From assembly GCF_026988555.1 (NCBI RefSeq), contig NZ_JALSLB010000013.1:1-64000 (forward strand): DNA of 64,000 nucleotides, given 5' to 3'. A program made the position numbers and the translations under genes. The notes below the pieces were generated by a model. That model saw only the letters and a list, made by a program, of their open reading frames with translations. It ran no database searches and was not told the origin of the DNA. Below, piece by piece: positions 14,814 to 41,600 of the stretch. Position 1 is the stretch's first letter. Every line of letters starts with the position of its first letter. The stretch comes from Thermococcus sp. GTDB lineage: Archaea; Methanobacteriota_B; Thermococci; Thermococcales; Thermococcaceae.

Positions 14814-14949
14814 CGGTGATTTTACGGGTTGAGGGCTTAAAAACACTGTGGGTTTTTTATCGTCCGGGTTATTTTTAACAACTATTTAACGGAAAACCTT
14901 ATAAACCTGGAAGTTGTTTCTTCTGTGAGTACTTTATGGGGTGGTGTCA

Positions 14950-15546
14950 ATGAAACGTGCTATGGTTGTTGGAATCCTGGCGGTCCTGATCTTTGCCGCC
15001 GGCGCCAAGTTTGGAGTTTCGTACTTCAGCGACGTGGCAAAATCGAGCGGAAATGAGATATCGACCGGGGACTTTGACGTGGGGATAAGCCGCGATGGTA
15101 GCAGGTACTACGACGACTACCGGCTCTTCTCCTTTGACAATATGAAGCCAGGTGAGAGCAGGACCTTCACGTTCTACATTAAAAACCGGGGAGACTATCC
15201 GATATCGTCCATCGAACTGCTCTTCAACGTTACTGACCTGGAACGGGGCAAGATGAGTAAAGCTGAGGCTTTGGTCGATAACACACCCGACGTGGGCGAG
15301 CTCAGCAGATACCTGATTGTTAAGGATTTCAGGGTCTCCGCCGGGGACGGTGACATTGTCCTGAACCGCTACATCGGTAAATCTCTGAGGGAGATTAACT
15401 CCACCCCTCTTGACATATTCAACGGTTCACTCCCCGAGAACGGCGTGCTCAGGGTCTCCGTCACGGTTCAGCTCTCGCCCTCGGCCGGTAACGACTGCCT
15501 GACAGACGTCTCCAACGTCGACATGATCATCACCGCAAGGCAGTGA
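14950..15546 (+). CDS. TasA/camelysin-like secreted protein, possible fibre subunit
   Basis: 198 residues from ATG 14950, behind GGGGTGGTGTCA; a TATA box CTTATAAA at about 14898 gives a start near 14925. The N-terminus is a basic MKR plus hydrophobic segment ending near AAGAKFG, followed by SYFSDVAKSSGNEISTGDFD. That 'YFSD...NxxxTGxxD' pattern is the hallmark of SipW-processed TasA/CalY proteins in Bacillus and of archaeal bundling pilus subunits of the AbpA type. The rest is predicted all-beta, with PGESRTFTFYIKNRGDYPIS as in related folds. It is monocistronic. I infer an extracellular fibre or matrix protein; the dedicated signal peptidase is not in the window. Confidence 0.78.
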   Translation: MKRAMVVGILAVLIFAAGAKFGVSYFSDVAKSSGNEISTGDFDVGISRDGSRYYDDYRLFSFDNMKPGESRTFTFYIKNRGDYPISSIELLFNVTDLERGKMSKAEALVDNTPDVGELSRYLIVKDFRVSAGDGDIVLNRYIGKSLREINSTPLDIFNGSLPENGVLRVSVTVQLSPSAGNDCLTDVSNVDMIITARQ

Positions 15547-15583
15547 TGCAAAAGTCCTTAAGGCCTCCAGCCAACTTAACCCC

Positions 15584-15640
15584 GCGATGATGATTGATGG
15601 GCGACCCGAGGGATGAGGAAGGTAAGGTGATCGCTGAGCA
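15584..15640 (+). ncRNA. C/D box guide RNA 1
   Basis: Box C ATGATGA is at 15587-15593 and box D CTGA at 15634-15637. Internal box C' ATGAGGA (15613-15619) and a degenerate D' CCGA (15606-15609) sit between. Guide stretches are 15594-15605 (upstream of D') and 15620-15633 (upstream of D). A TATA-like TCCTTAAGG centred at 15559 places the transcription start at about 15585. The D guide can pair over nine bases with CGAUCACCU at the 3' end of archaeal 16S rRNA as I recall it. The antisense frame across this region is not a gene. Confidence 0.75.
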
Positions 15641-15672
15641 TACATTTTTAACGTTCCCTTCCCACTTTTCTT

Positions 15673-15730
15673 GGGATGATGATTTCAGCCTTGCCTGAGG
15701 CTCGTGATGATGGAGTGACGGACTGACCGC
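15673..15730 (+). ncRNA. C/D box guide RNA 2, targets predicted in 16S rRNA
   Basis: All four boxes are good: C ATGATGA 15676-15682, D' CTGA 15695-15698, C' GTGATGA 15704-15710, D CTGA 15723-15726, with 12-base guides at 15683-15694 and 15711-15722. A TATA-like ATTTTTAAC centred at 15648 puts the start near 15673, and a T-run at 15735-15740 may end it. The D' guide complement GCAAGGCTGAAA and the D guide complement CCGTCACTCCA both occur in archaeal 16S rRNA from memory, near E. coli positions 902 and 1406. Confidence 0.9.
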
Positions 15731-15731
15731 T

Positions 15732-15740
15732 CACTTTTTT
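15732..15740 (+). terminator. Oligo-T stretch after guide RNA 2
   Basis: CACTTTTTT directly follows the box D end of guide RNA 2. Archaeal RNA polymerase often stops at such T-runs without a hairpin. It is the only clear candidate between the guide RNA and the promoter of the metal transporter (TATA-like CTTAAATATT near 15800). Confidence 0.5.
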
Positions 15741-41542: not shown

Positions 41543-41600
41543 AGGGATGATGAGTCTGGAGCCCCCTGATCTGTGAAGAAAAGTCTACGGGGCTGACCGC
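41543..41600 (+). ncRNA. C/D box guide RNA 3, abutting a coding gene
   Basis: Box C ATGATGA 41547-41553, D' CTGA 41566-41569, C' GTGAAGA 41573-41579 (one change from consensus) and D CTGA 41593-41596, with guides of 12 (41554-41565) and 13 bases (41580-41592). A TATA-like GCATAAAAAC centred at 41519 puts the start near 41545, at the RNA's 5' end. The GTG of the coiled-coil gene is only six bases after box D. Guide complements are GGGGCTCCAGAC and CCCCGTAGACTTT. Confidence 0.82.

Follow-up and report, generated by a model that had tools for sequence, protein, structure and literature searches.

The dual-guide C/D box sRNA found in the 64-kb stretch of Thermococcus DNA analyzed here (the window) is a real and complete sR60, and with a probability of roughly 0.8 we consider it to be a box C/D guide for methylation of G902 and U1406 in 16S rRNA and one half of an sR1-sR60 pair, the members of which would act in order and delay assembly of the decoding site. 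An Rfam cmscan of the whole window identified sR60 (RF01309) at full length with 65.3 bits and an E-value of 8.7e-14, the gathering cut-off of the family being 50 bits. Since the RNA belongs to a family that is already curated, it is known and ordinary, and the novelty of sR60 itself is low. Its name did not appear in the open archaeal papers searched. The initial annotation had placed the RNA at 15673-15730, which was right to within 2 nt but missed the exact ends; its description of complete C, D', C' and D boxes with 12-nt guides was borne out by the sequence (Table 1). In accordance with archaeal box C/D guides, 12 nt separate box C from box D' as well as box C' from box D, and a terminal stem closing the C/D k-turn is present. 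Upstream of the RNA, which starts with GGGATGA, an AT-rich block at positions -27 to -22 is conserved among 70 aligned copies, and a T run lies on the 3' side, which suggests that sR60 in Thermococcus has its own promoter and its own end. On one side of sR60 is a cation-efflux gene and on the other a small gene (14941-15546) for a camelysin-like protein, whose match to camelysin/Peptidase_M73 in Pfam is weak (E 7.5e-06) and here occurs in an archaeon. A search of the plasmid collection returned no match.

Table 1. Coordinates of the sR60 and sR1 features in the window.
Feature	Position	Strand	Basis
sR1 C/D box sRNA (RF01152)	15583..15639	+	Rfam cmscan
sR1 D' guide TTGATGGGCGAC (family form GTGATGGGCGAA)	15594..15605	+	pairs with 16S, E. 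coli 1400-1408
sR1 box D' CCGA, variant of CTGA	15606..15609	+	sequence; CCGA in most Thermococcus copies
sR1 D guide ending AAGGTGATCG	15620..15633	+	pairs with 16S 3' end
sR1 box D CTGA	15634..15637	+	sequence
TATA-like element ATTTTTAACG, likely sR60 promoter	15644..15653	+	AT-rich block in aligned copies; inference
sR60 C/D box sRNA (RF01309)	15672..15728	+	Rfam cmscan
sR60 terminal stem, 5' side GG	15673..15674	+	pairs with CC 15727-15728
sR60 box C ATGATGA	15676..15682	+	sequence
sR60 D' guide TTTCAGCCTTGC	15683..15694	+	12/12 pairing with own 16S 845-856
sR60 box D' CTGA	15695..15698	+	sequence
sR60 box C' GTGATGA	15704..15710	+	sequence
sR60 D guide TGGAGTGACGGA	15711..15722	+	11/12 pairing with own 16S 1352-1362
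sR60 box D CTGA	15723..15726	+	sequence
sR60 terminal stem, 3' side CC	15727..15728	+	conservation across genera
T run directly 3' of sR60, possible terminator	15735..15740	+	sequence; inference

Alignment of both sR60 guides to the 16S rRNA of this genome, in which one 16S gene was detected, was the check proposed with the initial annotation, and complements to both were recovered. The 16S gene contains GCAAGGCTGAAA in helix 27, complementary to the D' guide at all 12 positions, and CCCGTCACTCCA in helix 44, which matches the D guide at 11 of 12, as the initial annotation had expected. The sole mismatch is N1, located beside box D, which faces C1402 unpaired. Counting to N+5 leads to G849 (E. 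coli G902, helix 27) for the D' guide and to U1355 (E. coli U1406, helix 44) for the D guide, with Watson-Crick pairs at both sites (C-G902 and A-U1406); the annotation had named U1406 and a G near 902, and its interpretation of the pairing and of the predicted methylation sites is supported by these alignments. When 16S and 23S rRNA were scanned, both guides scored best at these sites, the next best matches being 10/12 for the D' guide and 9/12 for the D guide. By comparison, none of 1500 random 12-mers drawn from the window matched 16S or 23S rRNA at 12/12, and 19 (1.3%) matched at 11/12. The E. coli numbers of the sR60 and sR1 targets rest on conserved 16S motifs. As a check of this numbering, P. 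abyssi C1376 and U1467, aligned to E. coli 1402 and 1498 (PMC7005279), landed as expected.

Within the Thermococcaceae sR60 is nearly ubiquitous: RF01309 was found in 91 of 94 genomes at E <= 0.001, and 90 matches exceeded the cut-off. The D core GGAGTGACGG and the D' core TTCAGCCT were unchanged in 89 parsed copies; the parsing pattern itself contained both cores and two of the 91 stretches failed it, so that the invariance concerns these 89. Among them N1 was A in 85 and T in four, and both D' positions 1-3 and the D'-C' spacer varied. No difference in the target of either guide was seen among 30 16S genes taken from 29 genomes. The terminal stem differs by genus (GG/CC, CC/GG or AA/UU) with compensatory changes in all three pairs, and 96.7% of its cells were paired, a value reached by none of 500 shuffles and compared with at most 57% in slid controls. 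Such two-sided change from one genus to another gives direct evidence that the RNA is under selection. The copy studied here matches the family at full length with all boxes, both guide cores and the terminal stem, but, like its close relatives, has a D'-C' spacer that is two bases longer; its D' guide is paired throughout its 12 positions, while in several Pyrococcus copies the pairing is incomplete over positions 1-3. By exact pattern in a phylum search the U1406 guide was retrieved from 60 of the 94 family genomes, the rest having box C' GTGACGA or other small differences. One draft genome (G063) contained two sR60 copies on separate contigs (C51 and C226), one of them with N1 = T; with a completeness of 85% and a contamination of 4%, this assembly may be a mixture.

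A second C/D box sRNA, sR1 (RF01152), missed in the initial annotation, lies 32 nt upstream of sR60. It scored 51.3 bits when the window was scanned but 38.6 bits when the whole genome was searched, values on opposite sides of the gathering cut-off of 45; its boxes, both guide cores and its position agree with the copies of relatives. In contrast to the family, its box D' is CCGA and not CUGA, and its D' guide falls one base pair short of the family form: it forms 9 bp including one G-U, with C1402 in helix 44 at N+5, while the family form GTGATGGGCGAA, present in 72 of 99 counted sR1 stretches (some genomes counted twice), forms 10 bp with 16S 1400-1409, again with one G-U and C1402 at N+5. 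In a scan covering 16S together with its 3' flank, nine base pairs were found between the sR1 D guide and CGATCACCT at the 3' end of 16S (E. coli 1529-1537), with C1533 at N+5, a target that overlaps part of the anti-Shine-Dalgarno; AGGTGATC was present in the D guide of every parsed copy. When a dedicated second C1402 guide was sought elsewhere in this genome, the interpretable match was the neighbouring sR1.

For the sR1 D' guide an independent observation is available. In P. abyssi 16S rRNA, Cm1376 was reported by cryo-EM with LC-HRMS support and aligned by the authors with E. coli m4Cm1402 and eukaryotic Cm1639/Cm1703 (PMC7005279, Tables 3-4), and this is the site predicted for sR1 D', so that the observed Cm1376 agrees with the D' guide encoded beside sR60. 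Eukaryotic U43-type snoRNAs direct modification of the same nucleotide (18S Cm1639/Cm1703/Cm1645, E. coli Cm1402) by the same C/D mechanism as sR1 D' would; unlike them, sR60 itself is aimed at U1406, four bases off. For G902 and U1406, methylation by sR60 is predicted from sequence. The modification table of the P. abyssi 30S subunit includes neither Um1380 (U1406) nor Gm873 (G902), but the underlying map is at 3.2 Angstrom and very few ribose methylations were modelled overall (PMC7005279), so that the absence of both sites says little. A 2.1 Angstrom P. abyssi ribosome (PDB 9SRE) is accompanied by a supplementary table of modified nucleotides (PMC13324472).

The sR1 and sR60 genes adjoin in most Thermococcus and Pyrococcus genomes, and genome G004 likewise has the same sR1 D' guide with sR60 side by side. 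The gap from the end of sR1 to sR60 was 9-41 nt in 66 of 91 stretches, 142 nt in one and about 750 nt in two, while 19 stretches, those of genera g2 and g4 among them, yielded no sR1 match around sR60. As whole-genome matches placed the two RNAs about 24 kb apart in genome G078 of genus g4, and a nearby sR1 was detected in neither g2 nor g4, adjacency is not required. In Pyrococcus, where the gap can be as small as 9-21 nt and leaves no room for a separate promoter, the two RNAs are probably co-transcribed. It is probably the sR1-sR60 pair as a whole, and not sR60 by itself, that forms the unit of interest. A search of the open literature, a scope that older subscription papers fall outside, yielded no account of this arrangement with overlapping targets.

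Outside the family, the exact-pattern phylum search detected no U1406 guide in 21 genomes of other families of the class. Instead, eight of these possess another C/D sRNA; its D guide GAGATGGGCGGT forms 10 bp in the region of C1402 and shares the G-U pair at G1405. Weak sR60 matches in outside-family genomes were this different sRNA and were rejected as sR60. C1402 guidance thus looks older or more widespread than U1406 guidance. A broader contig scan for U1406 guides returned Thermococcaceae plus scattered bacterial matches attributable to chance; no complete archaeal chromosome was among the matches, and its silence on other archaea is therefore not evidence. In seven surveyed archaea from outside the Thermococcales, predictions in helix 44 were sparse (A1408 and G1494), and helix 27 was part of a hot spot (PMC4644070). 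Like sR15/sR17 of Nanoarchaeum equitans and other long-range dual guides described there, sR60 combines two guides for distant 16S sites joined in the fold; unlike these, which bind both strands of one helix (h28, h30), it binds h27 and h44. A further C/D sRNA in the window, sR23 (41545-41598, 68.4 bits), has a D guide AAAGTCTACGGGG with two equally good 10-pair matches, at 16S 153 and 23S 365.

Short boxes are common in any genome, but a chance resemblance of sR60 to a C/D RNA has negligible probability, being refuted by conservation: the Rfam E-value of 8.7e-14, the occurrence in 91 of 94 genomes and the compensatory stem changes all speak against it. It is also very improbable that the guides act on other RNAs such as 23S rRNA and that the 16S match is incidental. 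The D guide does have a 10-pair alternative with two G-U pairs at 23S 1137-1148 of this genome, and the D' guide reaches 10/12 at 16S 955 and 23S 499, yet the proposed targets match better (12/12 and 11/12), lie both in 16S rRNA and are invariant across genera.

A more serious alternative, which we nevertheless regard as unlikely, accepts sR60 as real but holds that one or both pairings serve mainly to chaperone the folding of 16S rRNA, U1406 and/or G902 receiving hardly any stable methylation or none. Such roles have been proposed for guides directed at distant but spatially close sites (PMC4644070), and the P. abyssi table lists Cm1402 and neither sR60 site (PMC7005279), although a table so poor in Nm overall is a weak argument in this respect. 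Against it, both sR60 guides combine Watson-Crick pairs at N+5 with the 12-nt box spacing that a catalytic guide needs.

Under the preferred reading, that of a methylation guide acting as part of the sR1-sR60 pair, sR60 would be bound by L7Ae, Nop5 and fibrillarin in an sRNP. Its D' guide would direct 2'-O-methylation of G902 in helix 27 and its D guide that of U1406 in helix 44, two nucleotides about 500 nt apart in the 16S sequence. For sR1, the expected products are Cm1402 in helix 44 (D' guide) and a methylated C1533 close to the 3' end of 16S rRNA (D guide). All four guides thus converge on h27, h44 and the 16S 3' end. The sR60 D guide pairs with 16S 1403-1413 and sR1 D' with 1400-1409, and both need 1403-1408; these helix 44 pairings exclude each other, so that the two RNPs would have to act in turn on each molecule. 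The strand of h44, h27 and the 3' end may be kept open until methylation is done, so that the decoding site would form later in the course of assembly. In P. abyssi eL41 is located between h27, h44 and h45 (PMC7005279), indicating that these parts of 16S rRNA are close in space, and the guides might plausibly serve to hold h27, h44 and the 3' end apart while 16S rRNA matures, in line with the chaperone idea (PMC4644070). More tentatively, and with considerable doubt, sR1-sR60 may be viewed as a conserved two-gene cassette with four guides at the junction of h27, h44 and the 3' end (G902, C1402, U1406 and C1533), in which competition of two guides for h44 would order methylation and the anti-Shine-Dalgarno would be masked until maturation is complete.

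The arrangement of neighbours with overlapping targets is more interesting than sR60 alone. Together, sR60 and sR1 offer a testable account of the origin of archaeal Cm1402, a modification conserved in bacteria, archaea and eukaryotes. Moreover, sR60 predicts Um1406 in the Thermococcaceae, a modification without report in helix 44 in the survey of seven other archaea (PMC4644070), and points to a possible role of guide RNAs in ordering the late folding steps of the decoding site.
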